From the IMG/VR virus record IMGVR_UViG_3300008259_003217, positions 1 through 64,000 of that record: a stretch of DNA of 64,000 nt. One strand, 5' to 3'. This stretch comes from a virus. The translations under genes were made by a program, and so were the position numbers. Shown piece by piece: positions 14,750 to 49,217 of the stretch (its first letter is position 1; the number at the start of each line of letters is the position of its first letter). Below the pieces are notes generated by a model. The model was not told the DNA's origin. It made no database searches and saw nothing but the letters and a program-made list of their open reading frames with translations.

Positions 14750-16390
14750 ATGGCAATTATAATTCAAGGTATAGGACCTGGGTCAACACTAAGAGATTCG
14801 AACACTAACCTATCGAACGGAAGCTGTAGTACCGTAGCTGGTGGTCAATTAAATACGTCACAATTAACTGAAACTATCGTCGGTGGTGGTTGTAAAAATA
14901 CCGCTGGACCAGTATGGTCAACTATCGGTGGTGGAGCGTGTAACCGAATATCAACAACAAAAGCTTCTGGGTCAGCACCTTGTAGTACAATTGTTGGTGG
15001 TTGGAGAAACGTAATTAATGTGAACAGTGAGAGATCAACTATTGGTGGTGGAGCGTGTAACAATATCAGTGGTATTGAAGGTTTCATTGGTGGTGGTATC
15101 TGTAACAATATTATTACTGGTGTTGACAACACTATTGCTGGTGGTTCAAGTAACTCTATACGAGAATCAAATGTGACAATAGGTGGTGGTCAACTTAATA
15201 GGGCTTTTGCCATTAACTCTGTAATCCTTGGGGGTAACTGTAACCTAACACAATCAATAAGTAGTGTTATTGGTGGTGGTGATAATAACACAATACTACC
15301 AAGTGTTGATGGAAAAGGAAATATAAACGTTATTGGTGGTGGTGCAAGAAACACCATTGACCCGTTTGGTATATTTAGTTACTCAACAATTCTAGGTGGT
15401 CAGTGTAATTTCACTAGTGGTGCTAACACAGTAATTGGTGGTGGAACAAATAACACGGCTTTACAAATAAACTCAATCGTTGGTGGTGGTTCTTTTAACT
15501 TAGCTAATGCTGCTTCACCAGCAATTGGTGGTGGGGTTCGTAATACAACACTTGGTCAAATATCTTCGATTGGTGGTGGTAGTGGGAACACAATAACAAC
15601 GACAGCTTGTTCATCAACAATCGGTGGTGGATTTGGTAATACAATAACTGGACAAAGATCAGCAATCTTAGGTAGTTCATCAAATAAAATTACAGGTAAT
15701 GATTCATTCATAATCGCTACAAGTTCAAGTGTTAGTGCTAACCGAAGTGTAGCTTTGGGTGGATCTAACGTTAACGTAACTGTTGATGATTCGGTTTACG
15801 TACCAAAACTTAACATTAGAAGTTTTCCAAACACTTCACCAATATACGGATTAGCGGTTGACGCTAACGGATTTGTTGTACCATCAACTAATCCAGGTGT
15901 TAACTTTGTGGTTGACGCTTTCTTATCGGAAGGTTCACCAGATCCAGTAAATAGTGTGTCTTCTGGTTTAGGTAATGATTTATCAAACTCATTGGTTGCG
16001 GTAACACAAACACCGACATTACAATATAATGATTACATCGGGTCATATGATAACGCTACTGGTATTTGGACATGTCCACAAAGTGGTAGATGGAACATGA
16101 GTTTTTATGTTCATTTAACTGGTCCAGACGCGGTTAATGGGTGGTATTCATTAGCTGAGGGTATGATTTACGCTGGTATTGTTGATGTTGTTACTGGTGA
16201 GGTTTACGCTTCAAGTACATTCTACACGTCAAACATTCAAAAATACGCTGATATTAACGGTGGACAATGGGGTGTGTTACTAAACGCTGGTGACCAATTA
16301 TGTGTTAGAGTACTTAATACAACAGGATTAAACTACACAACTGTAGCACCTGATGATTATGTTAGGTTCTCAACACAAAGAGTTGGATAA
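14750..16390 (+). CDS. IGGGxxN-repeat fibre protein with C1q-like head
   Basis: 546 residues. Residues 20-340 consist of about twenty repeats of the form S-x-I-x-GGG-x-x-N-x-I (for example STIGGGACNNIS, FIGGGICNNI, TVIGGGTNNTA), spaced about 13-18 residues, which would stack as a beta-roll or beta-helix shaft. Cys often precedes the Asn. After a connector (residues 340-385, VYVPKLNIRSFPN), the last 150 residues read like a C1q/TNF jelly roll (NDYIGSYDNATGIWTCPQSG, RWNMSFYVHLTG, LLNAGDQLCVRVLN). Shaft plus C1q-like head is a classic receptor-binding architecture. It is followed by the protease-like gene and a paralogous repeat protein. Confidence 0.85.
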   Translation: MAIIIQGIGPGSTLRDSNTNLSNGSCSTVAGGQLNTSQLTETIVGGGCKNTAGPVWSTIGGGACNRISTTKASGSAPCSTIVGGWRNVINVNSERSTIGGGACNNISGIEGFIGGGICNNIITGVDNTIAGGSSNSIRESNVTIGGGQLNRAFAINSVILGGNCNLTQSISSVIGGGDNNTILPSVDGKGNINVIGGGARNTIDPFGIFSYSTILGGQCNFTSGANTVIGGGTNNTALQINSIVGGGSFNLANAASPAIGGGVRNTTLGQISSIGGGSGNTITTTACSSTIGGGFGNTITGQRSAILGSSSNKITGNDSFIIATSSSVSANRSVALGGSNVNVTVDDSVYVPKLNIRSFPNTSPIYGLAVDANGFVVPSTNPGVNFVVDAFLSEGSPDPVNSVSSGLGNDLSNSLVAVTQTPTLQYNDYIGSYDNATGIWTCPQSGRWNMSFYVHLTGPDAVNGWYSLAEGMIYAGIVDVVTGEVYASSTFYTSNIQKYADINGGQWGVLLNAGDQLCVRVLNTTGLNYTTVAPDDYVRFSTQRVG

Positions 16391-17885: not shown

Positions 17886-19994
17886 ATGACAGAAATAATT
17901 ATAACAGATGTGAATGGTGGGAGCACCACAACAGTGAGAGACAGATTAGGTAATATTAGTCTTGGTTCTTACTCAACAATATCTGGAGGTGGTAAAAATA
18001 CATCAAACGGTGTTAGATCAACCGTATTGGGTGGTTATGGCAATACATTGGTTGGTAATGACTCGGTAGCTGGTGGTTATGATAATTTTTCACAGTCCGA
18101 CTTTACAGTAATTTCTGGTGGTAAATCAAATAGAATATCTGAAAATAGTTCTAGTTACTCGGTTATAATTGGTGGATCTAATAATATTATAACTGGTTCG
18201 ACTAGTGTGATAAACAATGGGTTGAATAATAACCTATTTGGTAACTACTCGACAATCTCTAACGGTTTAACAAATACAGTAAATTCGAACTATTCAACGG
18301 TAACAAATGGTATCGGTAATATAGTTACTGGTGATCATAGTTTAGTAGGTGGTGGGTCGTCAAATGTTATCTCAAAATCATCGTCAGTAATACTGAATGG
18401 ACAGGGTAACACCGTAAACTCACAAAACGGATCAATTTTAAATGGTGTGTCGAATACTGTTAACGGATCACTTTCGTCAATCGGGAATGGATTTAGAAAT
18501 CAAATTTCCGGAGAACAATCAGTTATTAATAATGGTATTTGTAATATAATCACATCAAGTAATTCATCAATAAACACCGGTATAAATAACTCAATATCTT
18601 CTGATCTATCAGTTATTGGTGGTGGGTATTTAAATGAAATTAAATCCGAATCATCATTCATTGGTGGTGGATCATTAAATATGATTGAGGGTGGGTCTTC
18701 GGTAATCGCTGGTGGTATGGACAATAAAACTGTTTTAGAATATTCATCCGTACTTGGTGGTAGATTTAATACAGTCGAAGGTGTTGGATCAACAGTTGGT
18801 GGTGGAATATACAACACTGTTTTAGGTTCCACGTCATCGTCTGTTGGATACGGTAACTTTGTATCTGGAGATACTTCACATGTTTTGTCAAATAATTCCT
18901 ACCTAGTTGGTAATAATTCTGTGATTCTTGGTGGTAGTAACATTAGTGGTTTTTCGGATAATACAGTATATGTTGATCAATTAAATTTATTTAACAATAG
19001 TGACCCAACATCTGTAACATATACAACTATACCAGTACCATTATCGGGTATTGACCCTATTGGGGTTGATGGTGATGGGTTTGTTAGGGTTTTTGAATTC
19101 CCAAAAACAACTTACATTACTAGTGGGTCATATGATAACACCACTGGTACTTTAAATTTAAGATATGATAACAATCAAGATATAATTGTCACTGGTTTCA
19201 CTGACGCTGATTGTTGTATAACAGGTGGGACATATTCTGGTAGAACCGGGGATATAATTTTAAATCCCGACGGACCAACACCAATCCCAATAACTGGAAT
19301 TACCAAAGTTGGTGGTGAAAGTGTGGTATTTGGTGACTACTCATCCGTTGGTGCAGGTAAAGATAATACAATATATTCCAATAACTCATTTATCGGTGGG
19401 GGTAGATTTAATTCAACTTCTGGGGACACATCAACAATTTTGGGTGGATCGAGGAATAGTGTAGTTGGAGCTGGGTCATCTGTTTTTGGTGGTGCAAGTA
19501 ACGACATAACTGGTGAAACATCTCATGTACTTGGTGGGCTAGGGAATACAATCGTTGGGGATGGATCAAATACTGTCGGGGGTAGTGGTAATCTAGTGTT
19601 AACTAATGATGTAGTATTAATTAACACAAGTAGTTTGACCGCAACAACCCCAAACACTGTGTACCTTGGTGAAACACAATTTACTGGACCAGTAAATTAT
19701 AAAACAACAATGGTTGACGCGTTAGCGGATCCGAATTTAACGGATAACGATAGTATTGTATTTTATAACACTTCAGGACCTGGTGGTACCATTTATCTAC
19801 CAACAGCTAGAGATGGTAAAGAGGTTATTCTAATTAGAACTAATAACACTAACAGTGCTTTTGTTGTTGGTAGTGGAGGAGCTAAAATAAATGGGGTTGG
19901 TATAGCTCAAAACTTACCAACAGCTGTATATACTAAAACAACATTTATTAGTAATGGTACTGACTGGTACGCTAACGACTCAGCACCATTCTAA
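17886..19994 (+). CDS. IGGGxxN-repeat fibre protein (second paralogue)
   Basis: 702 residues. Residues 25-340 and about 475-590 are repeats such as STISGGGKNTS, SVIGGGYLNEI, SFIGGGSLNMI and STILGGSRNSV, here mostly with Ser/Asn in place of the Cys of its paralogue. The two repeat blocks are separated by a non-repeat insert with TYITSGSYDNTTGTLNLRYD and ITGGTYSGRTGDIIL, elements also found in the fibre proteins at 23653 and 33957. The C-terminus (GGTIYLPTARDGKEVILIR) is a short beta domain seen at the ends of tail-fibre proteins. The very high Ser/Thr/Asn content makes it a plausible acceptor for the glycosyltransferases immediately downstream. Confidence 0.82.
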   Translation: MTEIIITDVNGGSTTTVRDRLGNISLGSYSTISGGGKNTSNGVRSTVLGGYGNTLVGNDSVAGGYDNFSQSDFTVISGGKSNRISENSSSYSVIIGGSNNIITGSTSVINNGLNNNLFGNYSTISNGLTNTVNSNYSTVTNGIGNIVTGDHSLVGGGSSNVISKSSSVILNGQGNTVNSQNGSILNGVSNTVNGSLSSIGNGFRNQISGEQSVINNGICNIITSSNSSINTGINNSISSDLSVIGGGYLNEIKSESSFIGGGSLNMIEGGSSVIAGGMDNKTVLEYSSVLGGRFNTVEGVGSTVGGGIYNTVLGSTSSSVGYGNFVSGDTSHVLSNNSYLVGNNSVILGGSNISGFSDNTVYVDQLNLFNNSDPTSVTYTTIPVPLSGIDPIGVDGDGFVRVFEFPKTTYITSGSYDNTTGTLNLRYDNNQDIIVTGFTDADCCITGGTYSGRTGDIILNPDGPTPIPITGITKVGGESVVFGDYSSVGAGKDNTIYSNNSFIGGGRFNSTSGDTSTILGGSRNSVVGAGSSVFGGASNDITGETSHVLGGLGNTIVGDGSNTVGGSGNLVLTNDVVLINTSSLTATTPNTVYLGETQFTGPVNYKTTMVDALADPNLTDNDSIVFYNTSGPGGTIYLPTARDGKEVILIRTNNTNSAFVVGSGGAKINGVGIAQNLPTAVYTKTTFISNGTDWYANDSAPF

Positions 19995-22687: not shown

Positions 22688-23644
22688 ATGAGTCAAAGTA
22701 TAACCATAGATAGTATAAATTTTGACGGTGAATTAGCTACCGTTATTTTTAAACCGGATAATGATAATGTTGTCATTAATCTAGGTCAAGTTACGTTACC
22801 GTTTATTTTTTTCCCGGACTTATTAGTACCACCAAGGGAAGTGTACGGTGTCTATACGATACTAGTTGAGAATGGGGATTGTCCGAATATATTAAATGTT
22901 CCAAGACCTACCCCCACACCAACACCAACTGTGACTCCGACAAGGACACAAACACCTACACCAACACCAACTGTAACACCAACACCAACATTTGATCCTT
23001 GTAAGGTACCAACCCCAACACCAACGAACACACCAACGAATACCGTTACCCCAACTGTAACACCAACACCAACTGAAACTTGTACAAGTCCTTGTGGATG
23101 TCCACATCCAAGTAATACACCAACCCCAACAAAAACACCAACACCCACACCAACATATCAAATATGTAAATCAACACCTACACCTACACCAACAGTTACT
23201 CCAACAAACACAGTTACTCCAACAAATACTATGACACCTACCCCTACCAATACTACCACACCAACGAATACACCAACACCAACACCTAGTAGTTCACCGG
23301 AACCAGACTTACCAGGAATTTATTTTGGTAAATTTAGTGGTTCGTCAATAACTAGTGGGGACTCTTCACTTCTTACTTTCGAGTATACAAATGACCCAAC
23401 AGATGATTATGTTACATTTACGAGTAGTGTTACACCATACTGGGGATACATTTTAATACCGATATCGTTACCACAACCAACAGGATTTAGAAATAGTACG
23501 ATTGGTTGTAATGGATTTAACATACCAACAAACAATATAGGTACAATAATTATAGTAGATGGAAATGGATTCCAGATAAATTACAATGTCTACAGAACCT
23601 TTAATGACTTCTTGGGTACTGTTGATTGTTGGTTATGTAGTTAA
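22688..23644 (+). CDS. mucin-like Thr/Pro-repeat virion protein
   Basis: 318 residues. Residues 1-70 are a compact beta domain ([20 protein letters not shown]). Residues 72-205 are almost pure [12 protein letters not shown]-type sequence interrupted by short Cys-containing islands ([27 protein letters not shown]). Residues 210-318 form a second domain ([33 protein letters not shown]). Thr-Pro alternation gives an extended stiff linker and is the classical acceptor context for mucin-type O-glycosylation. It lies directly after the glycosyltransferase block, 49 bases from the GT9-like gene. Confidence 0.8.
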
Positions 23645-32072: not shown

Positions 32073-33290
32073 ATGGAGTTTTTCATTAAAAAAAATGCCA
32101 CACTACCGGTTTTAAAATTACAAGTAGTGAAGGATGGTCGTAGTGATTACAATAAGATGATGGATCTTATTGAGGAATCGTCCATTTTCTTCTCTATGAT
32201 TGATACTGAAAATGGGATACCAAAGTTAGTAACTAGACCAGCTGGGTTTGTAAATAAAATAATGTTAGACCCAAACGCTAGTCCAGAATATTATGTGTAT
32301 TACCAGTTCACAAATAAAGACACAAATCGTGTTGGTAGGTATGAAGGACAATTTTTATTAAAAACAAATGAGGGTAATTTAATATTACCAATCAGGGAAA
32401 AATTATATATAACAGTTCAGGATAGTTTTATCTCTGACGATTTGATGTACGACTCATGTTATGTTTCGGAATTTCCTTGTTGTGTACCGTCTAACCCGGT
32501 GATAACAACGACAACAACTCAATTTTGTTTTATAAACCCCGAAACACCAACGGAATTGACATTGGTGGTTACGGTATTACCCGGGTCGGTAAACATAACG
32601 TATAATCTATTTTCTAATAAACCCGTAATTATCGATACCACATTAAATTTTACACACAATTTAGGTGTATTTAGTGGTTTACCAATAACAATAACTACCG
32701 GTGTTACCATATCACAGGGTAGTAATTTTGGTTCTACAGTAATTAACCTGGGTGAGGATTACTCTAATTTAACTCGTGTGGATCAATTTACAGATGTGAC
32801 TACGGACCCGTCAAATTTAAATTGGCAAATTGAGGAAATATTTCCAATATCACCTACACCAACAAATACACCTACCGTAACACCAACTGTAACGCCAACA
32901 AATACACCAACTGTAACGCCAACAAATACACCAACTGTAACACCAACTGTAACACCAACTGTAACACCAACTGTAACACCAACAAATACCATAACACCAA
33001 CTGTAACACCAACTGTAACACCAACAAATACTATAACACCAACTGTAACACCAACAAATACACCTACCGTAACACCAACAAATACACCTACCGTAACACC
33101 AACAAATACTATAACACCAACTGTAACACCAACTGTAACACCTACCGTAACACCAACAAATACTATAACACCAACCCCAACTGTAACCCCAACATCCACA
33201 TATTATATTATCGATCCAATTATAGTTGGCAGTGATACGTATCTAAATGTGGGTTTAAACAATTACTTAAAATATAATAACCCAATATAA
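32073..33290 (+). CDS. mucin-like VTPTNTPT-repeat virion protein
   Basis: 405 residues. Residues 1-140 form a folded N-terminal domain ([40 protein letters not shown]), which resembles a virion attachment module. Residues 150-258 ([20 protein letters not shown]) are a beta domain. Residues 260-373 are over 100 residues of [12 protein letters not shown] repeats, and the end ([20 protein letters not shown]) is a short capping strand pair. The repeat is encoded by near-identical DNA (32852-33196), so its length should vary by recombination. It follows the HtrL-like glycosyltransferases, and its Thr density makes it a candidate acceptor. Confidence 0.8.
32852..33196 (+). repeat. tandem DNA repeat encoding VTPTNTPT units
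   Basis: Alternating units ACACCAACTGTA and ACACCAACAAATAC (roughly 12 and 18 nt higher-order mixture) repeat for about 345 nt with only scattered synonymous changes (CCTACCGTAA, ACTATAACACC). The near-identity at DNA level, beyond what protein repetition needs, suggests recent expansion. Confidence 0.9.
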
Positions 33291-33956: not shown

Positions 33957-36683
33957 ATGGCAGATAAAAGAATATCACAGTTACCTTACGTTGGGAACAC
34001 AGGCTACACAACTAATGACATAATAGCTATAGTAAACTATGATGTATTTAGTGGTACGACAAAACATACACCATTAAGTCAGTTTTTACCTTATGTTTTA
34101 AGTGGGGTTACTTCTGGCGGGGATATTGTAAGTGGGACATATTTCCCATCTTCAGGATTACTACAATTAAATAACTCAACCGGTGGTACGATAACTATAC
34201 CTGGATACCAATACGTTGTCGGTGGGTCATATAATGACATTACCGAAGAATTAACATTAACAAATAATGATGGTAGTAATTTTCTCATAACTGGATTTAC
34301 TGACACATATTTCACTGGACTAACATTCCAAACTCCAGCGATGGATTTGACAATAACTAGAAATGATGGGTTTAGTGATACTGTAAGTCTGTTGCCTTTA
34401 CTTGGTGATACTTTTGTGACAGGAGGTACTTACGATTTAAATACTGGCGATGTTGAATTTACAAACAGTACTGGTGGTACATTTACTGTAACCGGATTTG
34501 TGACTGGGTATACAGATCACTATGTAACTGGTGGAACTTATGACATAACAACTGGTACATTAGATTTAAATACACAAACAACTACGGCATCAATAGCTGG
34601 GATAGACATTTTACATGAGGTTGGTACTGGTATTAATTCCACACAAAGAATAAATGTAAATTCTAATTCTTTTGGTGATTGTTCTTCAGTACTTGGTGGT
34701 GAGGGTAATACCTCTTATACTATATATAGTAACGTGACTGGTGGGTATTATAACACATCTGTAGGTTGTTCCACAACAATCGGTGGTGGGTATTGTAATA
34801 CCGCTTCAGTTTGTTTTTCGGTAATTGGTGGTGGAATATCAAACACATCAAACGGTAGATGTTCAGTCATAGCTGGCGGTGGTTCTAATACTGCGATTGG
34901 TACTTTGTCAACAATCGGTGGTGGTGATAATAACACAATCGAGACCGGTGGTAATATTGGTGGTGGTAGTGGAAACATTATTACATCAAATGGTATTGGT
35001 TCGGTTATTACCGGTGGAATTTTTAATGTATCTGAGGGAACGGTTAGTTCCATAAACGGAGGTAATTCAAATGTGGTTTGGGTATCGTCTGGAGGGGCTG
35101 TTATTGGTGGTGGAAATGACAACACCATCTTATCCACTAATGGTACAATTGCTGGTGGGTGTTTAAACACAATTTGGGGGACTAGTGATTGTTCAGTAAT
35201 TGGTGGTGGATGTCAAAATAAAATAATGTGTCCTACTTCAAAGAGTGTAATATCTGGTGGTATTTTAAATTACAGTGAAGGTGTATTAAATACGATAGGT
35301 GGTGGAGAATGTAATACATCGTACTCTTTTTGTTCAGTAATTAATGGTGGTTGTAAAAACACAATATGGTCAACAGGTACAAAATCTTTGATTGGTGGTG
35401 GTATTTGTAATACATCATGTGGTGGTAGTTCTGTCATTTCCGGAGGGGAAAAGAACTTAACCAAATTAAACTCTTGTTGTTCATTTATTGGTGGTGGTTG
35501 TAATAACATAACAGATAATTGTTATTCATCAATTGTTGGTGGGTATTGTAATCAATCTTGCGGTCAATATTCATTTGTTGGTAATGGTTTAGGTAATCAA
35601 TCATTAGGTGGTTGTAGTGTTATTGTTGGTGGTCAAAGTAATCAAAACATTGGTAACCATTCTTCAGTTTTAGGTGGATTACTTAATAACCTTAGAGGAT
35701 CCAGATCTGTTATTGGTGGTGGATCAACAAATACAGTAATGTCCACGGATAGTGTTATTGGTGGTGGGGTATCAAACTGTTTGAATGGTGATCATGGATT
35801 TATAGGTGGGGGTAGTGGGAACACGGTAGCATCATCCTCGTGTTTTTCAAACATTAATAGTGGGGCTAAAAATACGGTATTTACAGGAACAACGGGGTCA
35901 TCAATTAATGGTGGTATACATAATACAATTAGTTGTTCATCGATATATGGTATAATTAATGGTGGTGTTTGTAATACAATTTTGTCAAATTCTAGTATAA
36001 TTGTCGGTGGTGCATTAAATTACATTTTTAGTGGTGGATGTGTTAATATGATCGGTAATGGTCAACTTAATTTTATATCTGGGGGGACTTGTTATAGTAC
36101 AATAATTAACGGAATACAAAATAGAATATCCTCAAATTCCACTTATAGTTCAATAATTGGTGGTAGATGTAATACAGTACAATCAGAATATAGTACAGCT
36201 TATGGTTGTGGTGCTTTAACATCCAGATATGGTCAACAAAGTTTATCGATAGGTACGTTTTCAAATCCGGGAGATAATCAAAAGGTAGAGTTTTTACTTT
36301 CAAATAAAACTAATACAGCAACACCAACTAAATTATTTTTAGATTACCCAACAAGTACAGTAGGGTTAACAGTACCTAGTGGTAAAGCTTTATTTTTAAC
36401 GGTATCAATTTCAGCTGTTCAAGAAAACGCAACATTCCCATGTGGTGTTGGTTGTTCAGCTCATTATATTAGAAAAGTTGCTGTTAAAAATGTTGGTGGG
36501 AACACCACACTTATTGGGGCGGTTTCAACAGTGGGTACCGACGTTGAAAATAATACTGCTTGGAATGTTTCTATTTCCGCAAATAACACTTTAGATCAAT
36601 TAGAAATTTTAGTGACTGGGGTTGCTAGTGATAATATTAGATGGACAGCTCATGTGACTGGGGTTGAAATGTCTTGGATTTAA
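33957..36683 (+). CDS. large IGGGxxN-repeat fibre protein (third paralogue, Cys-rich repeats)
   Basis: 908 residues. Residues 1-45 (ADKRISQLPYVGNTGYTTND, KHTPLSQFLPYVL) are the shared attachment module. Residues 50-215 carry GGTYDLNTGDVEFTNSTGG and VTGYTDHYVTGGTYDITTG modules. Residues 230-760 hold about thirty repeats such as TIGGGYCNTASVC, SVIGGGCQNK, SFIGGGCNNITDNC and SVIVGGQSNQNIG, in which Cys occurs at fixed places before Asn and before Ser, suggesting a ladder of stacked cysteines. The last 140 residues (FLTVSISAVQENATFPCGVG, IRWTAHVTGVEMSWI) are a beta-sandwich head. Longest of the three repeat proteins and last gene of the fibre region. Confidence 0.85.
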   Translation: MADKRISQLPYVGNTGYTTNDIIAIVNYDVFSGTTKHTPLSQFLPYVLSGVTSGGDIVSGTYFPSSGLLQLNNSTGGTITIPGYQYVVGGSYNDITEELTLTNNDGSNFLITGFTDTYFTGLTFQTPAMDLTITRNDGFSDTVSLLPLLGDTFVTGGTYDLNTGDVEFTNSTGGTFTVTGFVTGYTDHYVTGGTYDITTGTLDLNTQTTTASIAGIDILHEVGTGINSTQRINVNSNSFGDCSSVLGGEGNTSYTIYSNVTGGYYNTSVGCSTTIGGGYCNTASVCFSVIGGGISNTSNGRCSVIAGGGSNTAIGTLSTIGGGDNNTIETGGNIGGGSGNIITSNGIGSVITGGIFNVSEGTVSSINGGNSNVVWVSSGGAVIGGGNDNTILSTNGTIAGGCLNTIWGTSDCSVIGGGCQNKIMCPTSKSVISGGILNYSEGVLNTIGGGECNTSYSFCSVINGGCKNTIWSTGTKSLIGGGICNTSCGGSSVISGGEKNLTKLNSCCSFIGGGCNNITDNCYSSIVGGYCNQSCGQYSFVGNGLGNQSLGGCSVIVGGQSNQNIGNHSSVLGGLLNNLRGSRSVIGGGSTNTVMSTDSVIGGGVSNCLNGDHGFIGGGSGNTVASSSCFSNINSGAKNTVFTGTTGSSINGGIHNTISCSSIYGIINGGVCNTILSNSSIIVGGALNYIFSGGCVNMIGNGQLNFISGGTCYSTIINGIQNRISSNSTYSSIIGGRCNTVQSEYSTAYGCGALTSRYGQQSLSIGTFSNPGDNQKVEFLLSNKTNTATPTKLFLDYPTSTVGLTVPSGKALFLTVSISAVQENATFPCGVGCSAHYIRKVAVKNVGGNTTLIGAVSTVGTDVENNTAWNVSISANNTLDQLEILVTGVASDNIRWTAHVTGVEMSWI

Positions 36684-39728: not shown

Positions 39729-40064
39729 TGATAGTATGTACCAATTACCATCGACAAAAAATAATTGTACACACGAACCTTTTTCCATCATTAGTTCGTC
39801 CCACTCCTCATCAATTTTACCAATGTCAGGTTTAACCAATACCGTTGTTAATGACTTAACGATAATCATGTGATTATCTACCGAGTTTAAAGTTATTGTT
39901 GATTCTTGGGTACCTCGAACAATTAATAAAGTTTCATTTGATACTTTATATTCTGGTGTGTCAACTACTTTACTAACCGGTTTTTTATTTACTGGTACAC
40001 TTATACTTTGTGGTCCTCTCATTACGGTTTTTCTTGGTGATATGTTTGTTATTTTAAATGACAT
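39705..40064 (-). CDS. small beta-rich hypothetical protein
   Basis: 119 residues: VSNETLLIVRGTQESTITLN and HMIIVKSLTTVLVKPDIGKI, then a helix EEWDELMMEKGSC and a hairpin VQLFFVDGNWYILSSDG. This is a strand-rich fold like those of virion decoration or C-terminal fibre domains (the closing VQL-F-DG-WYI resembles fibre ends that contact solvent). No enzyme motif. Co-oriented with the neck-like gene (overlap of 11 bases) and convergent with the polymerase. Confidence 0.65.
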   Translation of the reverse strand: MSFKITNISPRKTVMRGPQSISVPVNKKPVSKVVDTPEYKVSNETLLIVRGTQESTITLNSVDNHMIIVKSLTTVLVKPDIGKIDEEWDELMMEKGSCVQLFFVDGNWYILSSDGLKID

Positions 40065-41181
40065 AAATTTGACTTGGCATTGCTCTAAACTTCATTGATT
40101 TGTTTAGATTTTCAGCGATTAAAGCCTCACGTTCCATAACCTTTTCTGGTTTAAGTCTGGTTAATCTACCTTCAGCTCCAATAAGTTCCTCGATTAATTT
40201 TGTTTTCTCATCTTTAGCTTCGGTAGCTAATGAAGTGTAATCCATCGTTAAATCACCATCCGGAGTTTTTAAATTCCCACTAAACTTACCACGTACCCTA
40301 GCTAAAGTTTCTTTACAATAAGCAATAAACCATCTTCTAACCCAGATCTGTGATGGGTTATTTAAGTCAACCCAACTCATCCTATCAAACGGTACGTCAG
40401 ATGGCATTGTAATGATGTCTGGATTTAATTTTAAACATTTGTCCCTATCTTCAGGACCAACGTCATAATACCAATACCAAACTTTACCTCTAGTGAGTGT
40501 TGAGTTACCGAAGTCAAACTTACCACCTGGTGTATTCATTAAGTGAATAGCTTTTTTACCATCAGGTAAAGCTGTAACTCTATACGTTAAATCACCAACA
40601 ATTATTCTTCTTTGAATGTTAATTTCCTGCATTCGTAATAACATATCAAATACCGGCATCATAAAGTAACTACCACCCATATTACCCATCTGTGCTAGTC
40701 CACCACCACCACCTAGTCCACCACCGACACCTAAAGCACCAAATGACCAAGGGTCAAACATAGTGTTATTTAACTCAGCTGGTGTAAACCAAAGTAACTC
40801 ATTTAATTCCCTATTAGCTGGGATTTCATATATTTGTTGATTAGGTACTAATTGGATGTAATCTTTTTTCAAAACGTAATCACCACCGGCCTGAAGACCA
40901 ACTATTTTTGAATAAGCGTAAGTATATCTTGTTTCATAATCTAAACTTCTAGTTGTGAACGCTCTTGACAATGACTGAGTATCCATGTTTAGATTATATA
41001 AATTTGTCCATTGGGATTCAATTAACCAGTCTTGGATGTATTGTGAATATTCATCGATTGAGAATTCCAACAGTGTGTCCATTTGTTCGTCCTCCAACTC
41101 AACACTTCTTTGTGGAGCACCAAGTAAATGTCTTATTTGGGTGTACAATTTACTTCTTTCAGGTTCTTGAATTATTGCCAT
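40054..41181 (-). CDS. neck protein, T4 gp13-like
   Basis: 375 residues. The N-terminus SKLYTQIRHLLGAPQRSVEL followed by EDEQMDTLLEFSIDEYSQYI is the helical start pattern of head-completion/neck proteins of the gp13 type (short linear motif LGAP then a helix with D-x-Q-x-x-x-x-x-x-x-x-A/S-I-x-x-Y). A mid-protein Gly-rich loop (residues 150-167, GVGGGLGGGGGLAQMG) may be flexible or contact the portal. QIWVRRWFIAYCKETLARVR is a long amphipathic helix. In T4-like virions gp13 with gp14 forms the neck ring below the portal. The assignment relies on the N-terminal pattern and the nearby gp14/gp15-like genes. Confidence 0.6.
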   Translation of the reverse strand: MAIIQEPERSKLYTQIRHLLGAPQRSVELEDEQMDTLLEFSIDEYSQYIQDWLIESQWTNLYNLNMDTQSLSRAFTTRSLDYETRYTYAYSKIVGLQAGGDYVLKKDYIQLVPNQQIYEIPANRELNELLWFTPAELNNTMFDPWSFGALGVGGGLGGGGGLAQMGNMGGSYFMMPVFDMLLRMQEINIQRRIIVGDLTYRVTALPDGKKAIHLMNTPGGKFDFGNSTLTRGKVWYWYYDVGPEDRDKCLKLNPDIITMPSDVPFDRMSWVDLNNPSQIWVRRWFIAYCKETLARVRGKFSGNLKTPDGDLTMDYTSLATEAKDEKTKLIEELIGAEGRLTRLKPEKVMEREALIAENLNKSMKFRAMPSQIYVI

Positions 41182-41205: not shown

Positions 41206-42303
41206 TTATTGTTTTGTTCTAAGAAGGTATAACTCATTAACAAATCCCCAATTAACGTGATTCCAAAACTTTTTAATATATTCATCACGTTTGTTTTGGT
41301 ATTTTAAATAATAAGCGTGTTCCCATAAATCTAAACCTAAAATTGGGTACCCCCCATCTTTAACTGTATTCATTAATGGGTTATCTTGGTTGGGTGTAGA
41401 TACAATTTTCAATCTATTTGTTTTGGTTAATACCAACCAAACCCATCCAGATCCGAATCGATCTTTAGCTACCGATTCAAATTCATCTTTCATTTTTTTA
41501 ATATTCCCGTATTGTTTTGTGATTTTCTCGTAAACTTCACCTTTTGGTACTTGTTTCTTTGGTGATAACATTTTCCAGAACAACGCGTGATTAAACGCAC
41601 CCCCAGCGTTGTTCCTAATTGTATCGTTATACTTACTTATGGTTCTAATAATACTTTCCAATTCTAAATCACCTTTGTAGTTTTTTTTGGACAACGCGTC
41701 ATTAAGTTTTTTAACATACCCTTTATAATGTTTGTTATAATGGATGTCCATTGTTTTTGGATCCACAAATTGACTCATTGATGAATATGAATATGGTAAT
41801 CTTTCTATACCAATTTTTTTCATTTCCATAAGTAATTCAGATCTTAAATTTGTTTTTTCCTGAATCACTAATTGTTCACTGATTAGGTTAAGTTTTTTTT
41901 CAACCCCATATAAACTTTCATAAACTAAATTTTCGTATTGTGGGTAGTCCCTTTCAAACATTTTAACCAGTCGACCAGCGTACGCGTTAGCTTCGTCTTC
42001 GTTTTGTCCACCAATATCCTCACCACGTTCACGTTTCAAAACATCTCGTTGGTATTCGTGAACCCATTCATGAGCTAATGTTCTTAATATGTCCCGGTTT
42101 AATCTATTTTTTGTTAGAACTTTTATACCTCGTTCTGGGTGGTGACCACCAGTTGACATACTACCAATTCTTTCACCAACAAAATTTATGGTAATTTCAC
42201 GTTTAATCGGAATTTTTTTCTGTAGGTATCTGATAAAGTCGTCGGTTAATTTTCTATCTTCCGAAGACATATCACATTTAATATGTTTGACATTAACTTT
42301 CAT
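41206..42303 (-). CDS. zinc-metallopeptidase-like domain fused to Mn-type superoxide dismutase
   Basis: 365 residues in two domains. Residues 1-130 contain LRTLAHEWVHEYQRD (HExxH at 78-82) and GGQNEDEANAYAGRLVKMF (third-ligand Glu at about 102-104), a zincin pattern. Residues 165-365 form a complete Fe/Mn superoxide dismutase: metal ligands H188 (MDIHYNKHYKGY), H239 (NNAGGAFNHALFW), D325 and H329 (GLDLWEHAYYL), gateway H192, and the Mn-type glutamine Q306 in STPNQDNPL; FGSGWVWLV is the core strand. The SOD converts superoxide to H2O2 and O2. No frameshift separates the domains and the linker (131-164) is helical. It sits between neck and helicase genes, so a virion or assembly role is possible. 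The fusion is unusual to my knowledge. Confidence 0.93.
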   Translation of the reverse strand: MKVNVKHIKCDMSSEDRKLTDDFIRYLQKKIPIKREITINFVGERIGSMSTGGHHPERGIKVLTKNRLNRDILRTLAHEWVHEYQRDVLKRERGEDIGGQNEDEANAYAGRLVKMFERDYPQYENLVYESLYGVEKKLNLISEQLVIQEKTNLRSELLMEMKKIGIERLPYSYSSMSQFVDPKTMDIHYNKHYKGYVKKLNDALSKKNYKGDLELESIIRTISKYNDTIRNNAGGAFNHALFWKMLSPKKQVPKGEVYEKITKQYGNIKKMKDEFESVAKDRFGSGWVWLVLTKTNRLKIVSTPNQDNPLMNTVKDGGYPILGLDLWEHAYYLKYQNKRDEYIKKFWNHVNWGFVNELYLLRTKQ

Positions 42304-42335: not shown

Positions 42336-44147
42336 CTATCTACGTTTGTTTATTAGATTTAAAATTTCCTCAACCATGTCACCACTAGTTTGTTCTATTT
42401 CCCCATCACCCATTACGGTTCTAATAACTTGTTTTTTATTATTTAATATATCATATATGATACCTTCTATTGTGTTGTCAAATAGGGGGTAGTAAACAAT
42501 GACATTATTCTTTTGACCGTATCGGTAAGCTCTGTCCTCAGCTTGGGAGTGTTCCGCCGGTACAAATGACAAATCGTTCATTATGACAACCTCAGCGGAT
42601 GTTAAAGTTAAACCAACACCAGCAGCTTTTAAATTCCCAACAAAAACTTTTATTTTTTCATTTTCCTGGAACTGATCAACGGAGTGTTGTCTTTGTTGTT
42701 TTGAACAACTACCGTCAAGATATACCGATTCTTTTTTGAAGTGGTTGTGTATTAACTGGAGTGTGTCTGTAAAGTTTGTGAAAATAATAACTTTCTTACC
42801 TTGTTCAATAATGTTTTCAGCAATCTCAATTGTTTGGTTAACTTTTTCATTCGCGATGATTTTTCTAACCTTCATTAATTTAGAAAACTGTACAGTTAAC
42901 GATGAAGATTCGTCTGGATTTTTATCATACCAATCATAGTATTCACCCATAACTTCCTCATACTCTTTTGATTTTAATCTTAAATAAATTGGGGATATTA
43001 TTTTTTCAGGTAAATCCAACACATCCTCCTTTAATCGTCGTAAAACTTGTTTTGATGTTCGGTCACGTAATTCTTCCAGGTTTGAGGCTCCCGAAACATT
43101 CCATACTTTCCTGTTACCAGCTCTGAATTGGTATCCCTGACAATACCTTATGGCGTACGCCATCCAGTTTTGAGCTACCGGACTTTCAATTATCGATAAC
43201 AAATTATAATAATTCATAGGTCTGGATGTCATTGGTGTACCAGTCAATAACCAAACATACTTAATTCCTTTCACAAAATTATTAATAACTTTGGTTCTTT
43301 GTGCTTGGGTATTTGAAATCATGTGTGCTTCATCCATAATAACCAAATCAAAATTTGACTGAGTAATTAACGACTCGTTTGGATTCTTGGGATCGTGGAA
43401 ATTTTTTATAATGTCATAGTTAACAATAACAAAATCGTGTTCGGTTGAAAATTTCTTACCTTCACAGATATAAACACTTCTGTCTGAATAATTCTCGATC
43501 TCTCTCTGCCAATTTATTTTTAACGACGCTGGACACACTATCAGTATCTTTTTGGATCCTGTTTCAAGTGCTGCGATGATGGTTGATGTTGTTTTACCAA
43601 GACCCATATCGTCAGCTAAAATATATCTTCTGGACCCAACAAGTTTTTCAATCGCTTCTTTTTGATGTTGTAGGGGTGGTCTATGTGAATACTTTGAGTA
43701 ATCTATAGTTACGTCCTTTGTGGTTTGTGATTTAATTAGTGATGATTTTGGAACCCAAAACTCACTTAGTTGATCCTCCTCAAAGAATTTAGCCCATATA
43801 TGGTACGATTTATCTTTCTCAACAAGAAGTTTCTCTACGTATACCTTTTCTGGTACCTTTAATAGATATTTTTCCTCTGAAAATTTTTGTGCGAAGTATG
43901 TATCCAACTCAACCCATTTTCTAGCCACTTTTGGTATGGTGTCAAAATAATTTACAATGTAGTCAGCTTGAGTTCTAGTCGGGTAAAATTTTTTATTTGT
44001 TTCTTTTTTGTTTTTTAAAAACAATATATAATTATTCGACCCGGAATACACGTCGAGTAAGTCTAAAGCTTTGTGTTCTATTAGTTGTTGTCCGATATCC
44101 AAAATACCTTTTATTTTAAAAATAACAAAAATTTTAATATTTATCAA
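42336..44147 (-). CDS. SNF2-family DNA helicase/translocase
   Basis: About 600 residues. N-terminal region (1-150) is a divergent DNA-binding or accessory part. Helicase motifs follow: I YILADDMGLGKTTSTI (K185), Ia ILIVCPASLKINWQ, II LVIMDEAHMI (272-275), III WLLTGTPMTSRPMNYYNL, IV KKVIIFTNFTDTLQLIHNHF, V VGNLKAAGVGLTLTSA and VI QAEDRAYRYGQKN. It is SMARCAL1/HepA-like in layout and would remodel or anneal DNA, playing a role like T4 UvsW in replication restart. No ATG precedes motif I: the start is TTG 44147 or TTG 44102, so the N-terminus is uncertain. The start lies 13 bases from the divergent gene at 44161. Confidence 0.92.
   Translation of the reverse strand: MINIKIFVIFKIKGILDIGQQLIEHKALDLLDVYSGSNNYILFLKNKKETNKKFYPTRTQADYIVNYFDTIPKVARKWVELDTYFAQKFSEEKYLLKVPEKVYVEKLLVEKDKSYHIWAKFFEEDQLSEFWVPKSSLIKSQTTKDVTIDYSKYSHRPPLQHQKEAIEKLVGSRRYILADDMGLGKTTSTIIAALETGSKKILIVCPASLKINWQREIENYSDRSVYICEGKKFSTEHDFVIVNYDIIKNFHDPKNPNESLITQSNFDLVIMDEAHMISNTQAQRTKVINNFVKGIKYVWLLTGTPMTSRPMNYYNLLSIIESPVAQNWMAYAIRYCQGYQFRAGNRKVWNVSGASNLEELRDRTSKQVLRRLKEDVLDLPEKIISPIYLRLKSKEYEEVMGEYYDWYDKNPDESSSLTVQFSKLMKVRKIIANEKVNQTIEIAENIIEQGKKVIIFTNFTDTLQLIHNHFKKESVYLDGSCSKQQRQHSVDQFQENEKIKVFVGNLKAAGVGLTLTSAEVVIMNDLSFVPAEHSQAEDRAYRYGQKNNVIVYYPLFDNTIEGIIYDILNNKKQVIRTVMGDGEIEQTSGDMVEEILNLINKRR
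44138..44144 (+). promoter_or_regulatory. TATTTAT motif, 16 nt before ATG
   Basis: ATATTTAT then CAATAAAAAGTTGACA and the ATG at 44161. It overlaps the 5' end of the divergent helicase gene if that gene starts at 44147. Confidence 0.45.
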
Positions 44148-45989: not shown

Positions 45990-48900
45990 ATGGCTACTAA
46001 CAGTAAAGTATTTGTACCAATATTCGTTAGAAATTACGATGAGTTCCAGACTTACTTTGGGGGTACAACACCTGAAAAATTTATAAACACACAAATCCCT
46101 AAATATGAAGCGGCTTATATAGCTAAAGCTTATTTACAACAATCAAATCAATTGTTTGTAACTAGAGTATTGGGTTTATCTGGTTATGACGCTGGACCAT
46201 CTTGGTCAATCATGACTAAAGCTAATGTTGATCCTAACACAATTGGTAGATATTGTACCGATCCAGTTATCGTGGATTGTTTACCAGCTTGTAATGAGTA
46301 TGAAAAAATTGGATATACATTCAATTTTACAGCTTGTACAAATTCAACTGGTCAATCAACATTTGATGTGTCTGGAATTGATCCTTTAATTTTAGAAAAA
46401 TTAAATCTACAGTTTGAACAATTCAACGGGTCCACCTCATCAATAAACGATTATTTAAATGATTTAATATATGACGTTATAGGATCTGTCGATCAGTCAT
46501 TAGCTGAAGCTACAACAATTAGTTACTTCGGATCAATTGATACTGAGGATTATAATATACTATCACCTGTGTTTACAGCTGAAACAAATGTATATGGTGT
46601 TCCTGATGTATCACTAAATGATACTGATTTGGAATCAGCGTTTAACGACCCTTGGTATTATTCACAATTTGATAATACAGGTAATGGTGAGTATTCAGGA
46701 TTCTCATTCTTTTCATATATTACTGGATTAACAAATGTTACACCTGTGACAACAACAACTACACAACCTGTACCACCACCCCCACCACCACCAGACCCTT
46801 GTGTTACACCTATTCCGACCCCAGTTCCAACAGCTACACCAGTTCCACTAATTGTTGAGTGTTACACTGGTTCGTTGATTGGTGTAATTTACACATATAC
46901 CGGTACTTCATATACTGAGTATGATGATTTAGTTATCGCTACTTTAAGATCTAGAGGTTTATCAAATTATACATCTAGTGAAAACCCAGGTTATGAAGTT
47001 TCAAACATTAATAACGTAACTTTAAATGTATCTGGGATTTATTCTGGAGCTACCAAAAATCCATATTTACCATTTGCTGTCAATGTAACAAATGATAATG
47101 GAACTAACTTTACATTTGAAACATCTTTCAGTATATCTGACTCAAACTACGTAACTAAAGTATTTGGTACCGACAACTTTGGTAAACCTAAAGGTGTTGT
47201 TCCTGTATTTTTAGAGGAGAGGTTCCAATCTTTATTGAACTTTGGTTTTAGAAAAGGATACATTAGGGGTATTAATTCTGAATTAGTAGCTTTAGATTCA
47301 GCTCAAAGTGAAACTTCGGATTCAATAGGGTGGTATTTAGATAGATATCAATCAGCTAACTCACCTTGGGTTGTTTCCGAATTGAGGGGTACTAAAGTGT
47401 ATAATCTATTTAAATTCTACACAGTATCTGATGGTGACGCAGCGAATACACAAGTAAAAATATCAATTATTAATATATCATTTAATAATTTAACATTTGA
47501 TGTTTTAGTTAGGGATTACTATGATACGGATTCAAACCCCGTGGTTTTAGAAAAGTTCACAAACTGTTCAATGAATCCAAATGAAAATAGTTTTGTAGCT
47601 AAAAAAATTGGTACACTTGACGGTGAGTACGAATTAAATTCAAAATACATAATGATTGAGATTAATGAGGACGCACCTAATGATTCACTACCTTGTGGTT
47701 TTGATGGGTATAATTTCCGTCAGTACGATGGTGTTAGATCTCCATTCCCTATCATCAAAACAAAATATTTCTTCCCTGGTGAAGTTTTCTTTAACCCACC
47801 ATTTGGATTTGCTAATGGTAATGATGACGCTACCACAGAACCTGGTGATAATATTCGAAGAACATATCTAGGTATCTCAAATAGTTTTGGGTATGACAGT
47901 AGTTACTACGAATATAAAGGTAAACGAAATCCTAGTTCTTCTTGTGACATTGATGGTGTTGAGTGGTCCTATTTAAGTAAAGGATTCCACATGGATAAAA
48001 ACGCTAGTGGAATTACAATCTCAAACGGATTCTCAACAAGTGGAACACCTAGATTCTATGTTGGTGACGCTTCGTTTAGTAGTGAACCAACAGATACCGC
48101 AAACCCATATTATAGACTGTACGCTCGTAAATTTACTTTATTAGTACAAGGTGGTTTTGATGGTTGGGATATCTATAGAGAATATAGAACAAATAAGGAT
48201 GAGTTTGTTTTAGGTAAATCCGGATTCTTGAATGGAGCTTGTCCTAGTGATAGGTACCCTAACGCATCTGGATGGGGAGCGTTTAAACAAATCTCTGTTG
48301 GTGATGGTACAACTGAATTCGCTAACACAGATTATTACGCTTACCTATTAGGTATTAAAACATTCTCCAATCCAGAATCTGTTAACATTAATGTATTTGT
48401 TACCCCTGGTATTGATTATGTAAATAATAGTAATTTGGTTGAGTCAGCGATAGATATGATCGAGAACGACAGAGCGGACTCTTTGTATATCACAACAACA
48501 CCAGATTATAATTTATATTTACCAACAACCACCGGAACGGATGGATTAATATACCCACAGGAAGCGGTTGATAATCTTGAGTTAATCGGACTTGATTCGA
48601 ATTACACAGCTACTTATTACCCTTGGGTATTAACAAGAGATACGGTAAACAATACACAAATTTACATACCACCTACAGCTGAGGTTACAAGAAACTTAGC
48701 TTTAACTGACAACATAGCGTTCCCATGGTTCGCAGCGGCAGGTTACACGAGAGGTATTGTTAACTCAATTAAAGCTCGTAAAAAATTAACACAAGAAGAT
48801 AGAGACGTGTTATATACGGGTAGAATTAACCCAATCGCTACCTTCGCTGATGTTGGTACAGTTATATGGGGTAATAAAACTTTACAGGTACGTGAATCAG

Positions 48901-49217
48901 CACTTGATAGAATTAACGTTAGACGATTACTACTACAAGCACGTAAATTGATTTCTGCGGTATCTGTAAGGTTATTGTTTGACCAAAACGATGAACAAGT
49001 TAGACAAGATTTCTTAAACTCAGTAAATCCAATCTTAGACGCAATTAGAAGAGATAGAGGTTTATATGACTTCCGAGTTACAGTATCATCAGATACTTCT
49101 GACTTAGATAGAAATCAGATGACTGGTAAAATATACATTAAACCAACAAGATCTCTTGAGTTTATTGATATAACATTCTATATCACACCAACCGGAGCTT
49201 CGTTTGATGATGTATAA
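45990..49217 (+). CDS. tail sheath protein, T4 gp18-like, with large inserts
   Basis: 1075 residues, far longer than T4 gp18 (659). The N-terminus starts almost directly in the domain (VFVPIFVRNYDEFQTYFGGT), without the usual N-terminal arm (PGVy-x-E) that links neighbouring subunits. The C-terminal sheath core is clear: PWFAAAGYTRGIVNSIKARK, LYTGRINPIATFADVGTVIW, GNKTLQVRESALDRINVRRL and LEFIDITFYITPTGASF. Inserts include TTTTTQPVPPPPPPPDPC followed by IPTPVPTATPVP at about residue 255-290, a rigid Pro/Thr linker projecting from the sheath. It forms the contractile sheath around the tube. Upstream sits a candidate operator/promoter; downstream a terminator at 49241. Confidence 0.93.
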   Translation: MATNSKVFVPIFVRNYDEFQTYFGGTTPEKFINTQIPKYEAAYIAKAYLQQSNQLFVTRVLGLSGYDAGPSWSIMTKANVDPNTIGRYCTDPVIVDCLPACNEYEKIGYTFNFTACTNSTGQSTFDVSGIDPLILEKLNLQFEQFNGSTSSINDYLNDLIYDVIGSVDQSLAEATTISYFGSIDTEDYNILSPVFTAETNVYGVPDVSLNDTDLESAFNDPWYYSQFDNTGNGEYSGFSFFSYITGLTNVTPVTTTTTQPVPPPPPPPDPCVTPIPTPVPTATPVPLIVECYTGSLIGVIYTYTGTSYTEYDDLVIATLRSRGLSNYTSSENPGYEVSNINNVTLNVSGIYSGATKNPYLPFAVNVTNDNGTNFTFETSFSISDSNYVTKVFGTDNFGKPKGVVPVFLEERFQSLLNFGFRKGYIRGINSELVALDSAQSETSDSIGWYLDRYQSANSPWVVSELRGTKVYNLFKFYTVSDGDAANTQVKISIINISFNNLTFDVLVRDYYDTDSNPVVLEKFTNCSMNPNENSFVAKKIGTLDGEYELNSKYIMIEINEDAPNDSLPCGFDGYNFRQYDGVRSPFPIIKTKYFFPGEVFFNPPFGFANGNDDATTEPGDNIRRTYLGISNSFGYDSSYYEYKGKRNPSSSCDIDGVEWSYLSKGFHMDKNASGITISNGFSTSGTPRFYVGDASFSSEPTDTANPYYRLYARKFTLLVQGGFDGWDIYREYRTNKDEFVLGKSGFLNGACPSDRYPNASGWGAFKQISVGDGTTEFANTDYYAYLLGIKTFSNPESVNINVFVTPGIDYVNNSNLVESAIDMIENDRADSLYITTTPDYNLYLPTTTGTDGLIYPQEAVDNLELIGLDSNYTATYYPWVLTRDTVNNTQIYIPPTAEVTRNLALTDNIAFPWFAAAGYTRGIVNSIKARKKLTQEDRDVLYTGRINPIATFADVGTVIWGNKTLQVRESALDRINVRRLLLQARKLISAVSVRLLFDQNDEQVRQDFLNSVNPILDAIRRDRGLYDFRVTVSSDTSDLDRNQMTGKIYIKPTRSLEFIDITFYITPTGASFDDV

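Follow-up and report, generated by a model that had tools for sequence, protein, structure and literature searches.

The window analysed here, a 64,000-nucleotide stretch of viral DNA, belongs to a 160-kb fragmentary record with two larger relatives of 304 kb and 296 kb. On its minus strand, between the genes for a helicase and a neck protein, lies one reading frame that joins a zincin-like domain, a linker and a complete Mn-type superoxide dismutase (SOD) (Table 1). The minus-strand frame contains no internal stop from 42303 to 41206, and the plus strand across 41206-42303 contains many. A first, sequence-only reading had already described one continuous frame with two domains; this description was borne out, with correct coordinates, and lacked only the strand.

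Table 1. Window coordinates of the zincin-SOD gene, its parts and its two neighbours.
Feature	Position	Strand	Basis or remark
Whole ORF, zincin-like domain + linker + Mn-type SOD	41206..42303	minus	365 codons, ATG start
Zincin-like domain, residues 1-128	41920..42303	minus	AlphaFold2 and structural alignment
HEWVH motif, residues 78-82	42058..42072	minus	conserved motif
EDEAN, residues 102-106, candidate third zinc ligand (E102 or E104)	41986..42000	minus	putative ligand role
Linker, residues 129-160	41824..41919	minus	lowest model confidence; resembles the peptide that leads zincin-less relatives at their N-terminus
Candidate cleavage site 1, LVYE/S, P1 = E129	41917..41928	minus	invariant E
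Candidate cleavage site 2, LISE/Q, P1 = E143	41875..41886	minus	invariant E; cf. capsid precursor FLINE/A
Candidate cleavage site 3, LLME/M, P1 = E160, immediately before SOD	41824..41835	minus	invariant E
Fe/Mn-family SOD, Mn-type, residues 161-365	41209..41823	minus	Pfam; ligands H188, H239, D325, H329; Q306
Upstream neighbour, SNF2-type helicase (phrog_62)	42336..44147	minus	in 80/80 loci
Downstream neighbour, gp13-like neck protein (phrog_211, head-tail adaptor Ad2)	40054..41181	minus	PHROG match

Two domains in one reading frame

The identical 365-aa protein is encoded on four other contigs (L002, L003, L004 and L006). A scan of IMG/VR with the whole protein gave 342 relatives, and the best 80 of these 342 are all two-domain proteins in one frame, each aligning in a single piece from residue 1 to at least residue 362, with the HEW[VI]H and GGAFNH motifs sharing a frame in 80/80. 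Because the protein is identical on four other contigs and of one piece in all 80 kept relatives, the fusion is not a product of chance or assembly; an artefact of assembly or frame that joined two genes, for which nothing was found in favour, is contradicted by the same observations and has practically no chance of being correct. A scan with the zincin-like domain alone gave 408 matches, and among the best 80 of these 408 the SOD motif lay in frame in 77, the frames of the other three running off contig ends first. One of the 77 motif-bearing loci, L204 (2501-3481), has an in-frame gap of ~38 residues at the SOD start that removes the first metal ligand, and represents either a dead SOD or an assembly error. 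Counts drawn from the best 80 of 342, of 408 and, in a survey described below, of at least 599 relatives are biased towards close relatives; the set of distinct proteins used throughout comprises 82 proteins from 160 loci. In a phage genome collection, no record had a region covering 80% of the query, and partial matches were found in 30 records. The one plasmid record above this level, with 87% of the query covered, holds an ordinary SOD gene of 207 codons whose frame is extended by chance, and was set aside. As to whether such a fusion is common in host proteins, a question raised by the sequence-only reading, one scan of genome contigs by exact peptide patterns, which distant host homologues could escape, returned a single zincin-like fragment without SOD. 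At L084:1-234, a zincin-like fragment begins a Flavobacteriales-bin contig and stops after ENILYGEE, at about the position of the first linker glutamate of the phage protein; it adjoins ordinary bacterial genes and may represent either a relative on the host side or the end of a chimeric contig.

The N-terminal domain is called zincin-like here on account of its invariant HEW[VI]H motif, the invariant EDEAN on the next helix and its predicted fold. HEW[VI]H is present in 80/80 kept relatives and 82/82 distinct proteins, and EDEAN, including E102-D103-E104, is invariant in 20/20 aligned relatives. AlphaFold2 modelled residues 1-130 with a pLDDT of 89 and a pTM of 0.86, and predicted helices at 69-87 and 100-119 that place the HExxH on a helix and the downstream Glu on a second one. 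The sequence-only reading had pointed to HEWVH and to a downstream E-x-E in a helix, and both were recovered, with E102-D103-E104 at the start of the predicted helix 100-119. In structural alignment with VIA-align, the top Z scores were 9.5 (1oz9), 9.1 (ERAP2) and 8.9 (Wss1), and the top rows were mostly zinc hydrolases. A Foldseek search with the domain returned nothing at E<=0.001, and Pfam Peptidase_M76 (PF09768) reached 16.2 bits against a cut-off of 25.2, which falls short of membership of family M76. A stand-alone relative of the domain occurs in cyanophage B23 (L082:4827-5201); it starts with a T4-like targeting peptide, MNYKQFLRESTEK, resembling the start of T4 IPIII, MKTYQEFIAEA (T4 record), and matches a PHROG annotated as metallo-protease (5.3e-5).

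The SOD part matches Pfam Sod_Fe_N (PF00081; residues 167-247, 2.4e-19, 70 bits against a cut-off of 27) and Sod_Fe_C (PF02777; residues 253-357, 2.3e-39, 134 bits against 20.9). The four metal ligands and the Mn-type Gln, assigned by the sequence-only reading to H188, H239, D325, H329 and Q306, were found at exactly these residues and are invariant in 20/20 aligned rows; we take Q306 to be the Mn-type glutamine of the SOD family. The best PDB match was 6gsc (4.6e-60), and the NCBIfam Mn-type model ranked top of three with 197.9 bits, under its equivalog cut-off of 363. Judged by its sequence, the SOD part is thus a complete Mn-type SOD and is predicted to be active. It shares all four metal ligands and the Mn-type Gln with bacterial Mn-SODs, and its identity to those encoded on bacterial plasmid records reaches up to 47%. 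Unlike them it is phage-borne, is preceded by a leader and in most cases also by a zincin-like domain, and has a fixed position next to a neck gene. The best BFVD structural match, UniProt A0A6J5L953 (501 aa, from an uncultured Caudovirales phage), shows 62% identity over 236 columns and is very likely a relative of the fusion family, although it is annotated as 'superoxide dismutase' only; the family is therefore very likely already in databases under a SOD name. Elsewhere in the window's own phage genome (G000), positions 125952-126546 (L088:3452-4046) hold adjacent thioredoxin-like (WCGPC) and glutaredoxin-like (CPYC) ORFs, both named from their letters.

The linker and related leaders

In the full-protein model, residues 129-166 were the least confident part, with pLDDT below 50. 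Within the linker, E129 and E143 are present in 82/82 distinct proteins and E160 in all 81 that reach it. Segmentation by pattern succeeded for 75/82 linkers; the seven left out were later read by eye, and comprise six truncated or shortened proteins (L191, L193, L199, L201, L204 and L207) and the full-length L211, which has EMKRIGI. In 75/75 segmented proteins a hydrophobic residue stands two places before each glutamate, the three contexts being [VMI][YF]E/[GSNDC], [IL][NKST]E/[QENSD] and [IL]xE/M. The [LIVMF]xE pattern occurs 11.0 times per 100 aa in the linker, compared with 1.9 for the zincin-like domain and 1.2 for the SOD; shuffled linkers gave 5.9, and none of 1000 shuffles exceeded 6.9. 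Density by itself was nevertheless rejected as decisive: 44-aa windows with at least five [LIVMF]xE occur in 12/154 ORFs of the window's record, 32/375 of G001 and 25/366 of G003, the G003 SOD protein being among these 25. As dense windows are not rare in these genomes, we place the weight on the invariance and context of the glutamates. On this reading of the letters, the linker sites look like the hydrophobic-x-E pattern of T4-type prohead proteases, and cleavage would occur after the glutamates.

SODs without a zincin-like domain carry a comparable peptide at their N-terminus. In 12/13 such proteins a linker-like stretch of ~30 residues, ending in the hydrophobic-x-E pattern, is followed directly by the SOD, as in MKNLESKAELLKEEIILQEKKDNQNFLITE/MKRIGID; the leader of L337 ends in LIEE. 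The thirteenth, L315, has a linker-like stretch with no ATG ahead of it in the frame read. The putative targeting peptide is thus internal in the window protein and N-terminal in its zincin-less relatives. A linker HMM, built from 53 distinct linkers, was tested on 10/13 leaders (8 distinct; L315, L334 and L339 were omitted) against 260 shuffled leaders and the ORF N-termini of three genomes. Seven of the 10 leaders (5/8 distinct) outranked every control, the seventh marginally (0.033 vs 0.036), and 3/10 failed to do so. All 10 tested leaders keep E160. A tblastn search of the phage genome collection with a 22-aa leader found nothing, a result of little weight for so short a query.

Components of a T4-type head are encoded in the same phage group. 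An S77 prohead protease (PF03420) and a gp23-type capsid protein (PF07068) scored over cut-off in the same 4/7 records with the gene, and the window's own 160-kb fragmentary record matched neither model. In the PDB, the group's protease has its match in 5jbl (3.8e-13), the prohead core protease T4 gp21. In 4/4 records, the capsid precursor begins with 60 residues ending SFLINE/A, ~10 residues ahead of where the alignment with mature gp23 starts, and T4 gp23 itself reads SFLTE/A at 65/66 (T4 record). T4 gp23 is described as losing 65 residues (PMC9958956); by analogy, the capsid protein of the relatives would be cut at FLINE/A.

Leaders are found beyond the SOD locus as well. Three leader families, MKKVIRLTESDLTRIVKRVINE, MKIIITENQYKLIKE and MKELIRHIIKE, head 49 mostly small proteins in the 304-kb (G001; L101-L116) and 296-kb (G003; L117-L132) relatives and end in the T4-type cleavage pattern. 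Leader-bearing ORFs number 26/375 in G001 and 23/366 in G003, far from a random yield given a mean of at most 0.03 per pattern in shuffled N-termini, and 2/154 in the window's own record. Four leader patterns were tried, all written after seeing sequences; one of them, L3, had no match in any genome scanned, and leaders are clear only in the two larger relatives, with the patterns written afterwards. The first leader regex gave no enrichment in the window's own record (4 vs 1.14, shuffle maximum 6), and T4-type late promoter strings were not enriched either (15 vs 16.2 expected). Two genes after the capsid gene of G001, there is an ORF with such a leader inside its sequence. One leader-bearing protein (L101:11931-13181) has HEIKH and is perhaps a second packaged metallopeptidase. 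Other proteins of these genomes also drew attention. DnaK-like and DnaJ-like proteins were recognised by their N-terminal letters at G000 148998-150851 (L089:6998-8851) and L087:18229-19146. Long proteins with repeated 'IGGGxxNT'-like units, perhaps fibre proteins, lie at window positions 14750-16390, 17886-19994 and 33957-36683, and Thr/Pro-rich stretches at 22688-23644, 32073-33290 and 45990-49217, of which one lies within a tail sheath protein that, at 1075 aa, is longer than the 659-codon gp18 of T4.

C-terminal modules and the place between helicase and neck gene

The window protein is a member of a modular series with swappable C-terminal modules, a point missed by the sequence-only reading. 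Among the 82 distinct fusions, 43 exceed 370 residues and carry added C-terminal modules. The 40 distinct tails of more than 40 residues fell into three clusters, one of 18 with type A, one of 19 in which types B and D are joined because long chains carry both, and one of 3 with type C; the tail pattern missed L163 and L174. L163, the longest chain with 958 aa, reads zincin-SOD-D-D-B by eye. Zincin-less proteins have a fifth type, E, behind their SOD, as tested with L341 and L328. All five types exist both fused and as separate genes, with fused-separate identities of 41-84%: 45.6% for type A (separate gene in L253), 60.2% for type B (L337), 41.1% for type C (L343), 83.9% for type D (G003) and 59.2% for type E (L317). 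Read by eye, the leaders of these five separate proteins end in VLNE, LINE, RLTE, LIKE and VLSE, respectively. In general, fused modules are preceded by [LIVT]xE junctions, and separate module genes mostly have leaders ending in hydrophobic-x-E or TE. Type A was fused in 42/43 loci found and type B in 13/13.

The separate and fused forms can be compared within G003, where the SOD gene stands among five separate type-D genes, all fitting M[KR]III[TS]E[NS]QYK[LRS][IL][KN]E, and the fused type-D copy reads KKPLNE/SISLKEKLLGLIKK. A leader was found in 9/11 separate type-D genes of this genome, the remaining two (49859 and 77055) having no recognisable one. The five genes round the SOD gene are leader-bearing paralogues of ~150 aa at ~238754-242671 of the 296-kb relative; one more is fused to the SOD and others are scattered over the genome.

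As for function, D-x(n)-[EQ]xK stretches in several of the modules recall, as we read the letters, PD-(D/E)XK nucleases, and a distant relative of module B gave a sub-threshold match to RE_MjaI (17 vs 22.7 bits). The nuclease idea for the modules stems from these short motif stretches and this one sub-threshold match, and library searches did not confirm it. Modules A-D had no Pfam match over cut-off and no PHROGs match at E<=0.1, the separate B, C and E proteins had no Pfam match over cut-off, and module E had none among PDB sequences at E<=1. Four proteins searched with PADLOC gave no match at E<=0.01.

The gp13-like neck gene, which has the same product name as T4 gp13, follows downstream in 74/80 loci, and the contigs of the remaining 6 stop within 107 bases; in a few loci, such as G003, further genes lie between the SOD and the neck gene. 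A survey anchored on the neck gene, for which 80 of at least 599 relatives were kept, found zincin-SOD at the helicase-neck place in 61/80, a SOD without zincin in 13/80 and other cargo in 6/80. The fusion is conserved in this T4-like jumbo-phage group (80/80 best relatives). In G007, a 281-kb record, the helicase directly adjoins the neck gene and the place is empty, so the protein is not essential group-wide; a family-alignment search of G007, run without a positive control, found nothing. The helicase frame of G007 (L346:2630-4093, minus) has, on reading by eye, an intein-like end (YVTEHCIVTHN then TTSTII) at the P-loop region. The sequence-only reading had argued for a virion link from the position among neck genes. 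That link is supported, and the argument from position is weaker than it was put, since the other neighbour is a helicase (80/80 loci) and the place can be empty; the prohead-protease-type linker sites and the linker-like leaders on zincin-less SODs give the link a better footing than position does. The roles which that reading had suggested for the peptidase part, a scaffold or a metal store, gained no support.

Proposed packaging, alternatives and meaning

In phage T4, the head holds ~1000 internal protein molecules whose short N-terminal targeting peptide is removed by gp21, and IPI and Alt are described as acting in the new host (PMC9958956, PMC3012670). The ejected enzyme Alt has its cleavage sites at ITE-6 and LTE-619 (PMC5694885), and T4 IPs are reported to inhibit restriction enzymes (PMC12373910). 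The targeting of T4 internal proteins, the gp21 removal and the Alt cuts lead us to regard the linker as a probable targeting propeptide, and to expect that the head protease frees the domains and that they are ejected. On balance, we favour reading the gene product as a modular polyprotein that a T4-like jumbo phage packs into its head, cuts at head maturation and probably ejects, the SOD being one cargo. The linker or leader would act as a capsid-targeting propeptide that draws the chain into the prohead core, and the prohead protease would cut after the conserved glutamates, so that within the head the zincin-like domain, the SOD and, where there is one, the C-terminal module come free. Once matured, the proteins would remain with the DNA and be ejected together with it, like the T4 IPs and Alt, which would transfer the zincin-SOD protein into the host at infection. 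The SOD may remove superoxide from packaged or newly injected DNA and in the early infected cell; its task could be to protect the DNA while in the head, to protect the cell early in infection, or to help oxidatively stressed bacteria, as proposed for freshwater phages (PMC6802176). The zincin-like domain may trim injected or host proteins, and the C-terminal modules, of which several have D-x(n)-[EQ]xK stretches of nuclease-like appearance, may be accessory effectors against the host or competitors. A more elaborate version, which we put forward tentatively and hold to be possible rather than probable, is that one precursor is cut by the head protease into a peptidase, a SOD and a swappable nuclease-like part, all injected with the DNA, so that a multi-cargo polyprotein would have arisen from targeting-peptide genes strung together at one place.

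Two known systems resemble the proposed arrangement. As with T4 IPI-IPIII and Alt, the leaders and junctions end in hydrophobic-x-E (Alt being cut near both ends at [IL]TE; PMC5694885), diverse cargo has only the leader in common, and a T4-type protease and capsid are present in related genomes. The proteins described here differ in having several cargo domains per chain, a SOD as cargo and, in the fused form, an internal leader, and in that they are predicted to be packaged. The internal position of the leader speaks against packaging, as the fused chain itself starts without one, whereas T4 targeting sequences are N-terminal; the C-terminal propeptide of Alt is the nearest exception. The second system is that of the polyvalent proteins, multidomain phage proteins predicted to be injected, in which a zincin-like domain is a common hub (Iyer et al. 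2017, PMC5512222). With at least two domains of unrelated activity in one phage protein, zincin included, the zincin-SOD chain shares their domain build; in contrast, the words 'superoxide' and 'dismutase' are absent from the main text of PMC5512222, and cleavage is here assigned to the prohead protease.

Apart from packaging, three other explanations deserve consideration. The protein might be a bifunctional, cytoplasmic auxiliary enzyme of the stress type that stays outside the virion, with the linker as an uncut flexible tether and the SOD protecting the infected cell. Freshwater phages are described as having many oxidative-stress genes, including SODs, that were proposed to protect infected hosts (PMC6802176), and such an enzyme would agree with the thioredoxin-like and glutaredoxin-like ORFs read by letters in the window's genome and with a helicase gene as the constant upstream neighbour. 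It would, however, leave unexplained why three glutamates are invariant in an otherwise variable linker, and why zincin-less SODs and separate modules carry leaders with the same ending, and we regard it as unlikely. Proteolysis without the prohead protease is a further option, in which the zincin-like domain would itself cut the linker, as proposed for zincin domains of multidomain injected proteins by Iyer et al. (PMC5512222). The invariance of HEW[VI]H is what such autoprocessing would lead one to expect, but SODs without a zincin-like domain keep a similar leader and its terminal glutamate, and HExxH occurs in only 1/49 leader-bearing ORFs of G001 and G003, which makes this a rather remote explanation.

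The free SOD could also arise without any proteolysis, by an internal translation start at Met161 (ATG AAA AAA...). M161 is invariant in 75/75 segmented fusions and MKKI resembles a former gene start, yet in the zincin-less L337 the corresponding position is Ala and the glutamate before it is kept, so that a start at Met161 seems to us slightly less credible still than autoprocessing. Simple SD words, found at 0/160 gene starts and 11/72 internal sites, are uninformative on this point. Packaging into the head and cleavage by the prohead protease, suggested by the sequences and by analogy with T4, thus remain the reading that we prefer.

A literature search, judged by titles and abstract openings, recognised no description of the fusion or of the leaders. 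The parts are covered by known kinds (T4 internal proteins, polyvalent proteins and Mn-SOD), and what is new is their combination and the cleavable modular build. If packaging and cleavage are confirmed, the SOD would be virion cargo rather than the product of a routine metabolic gene, an antioxidant enzyme delivered by the virion itself, and would therefore have its task either on the DNA in the head or in the opening minutes of an infection. The variants seen at the place, from empty through a module alone, leader-SOD and SOD with module to added zincin and chains of up to five parts, may then show how phages build multi-domain injected proteins, and the leader families would offer a simple means of predicting from sequence which proteins uncultured T4-like jumbo phages pack into their heads.
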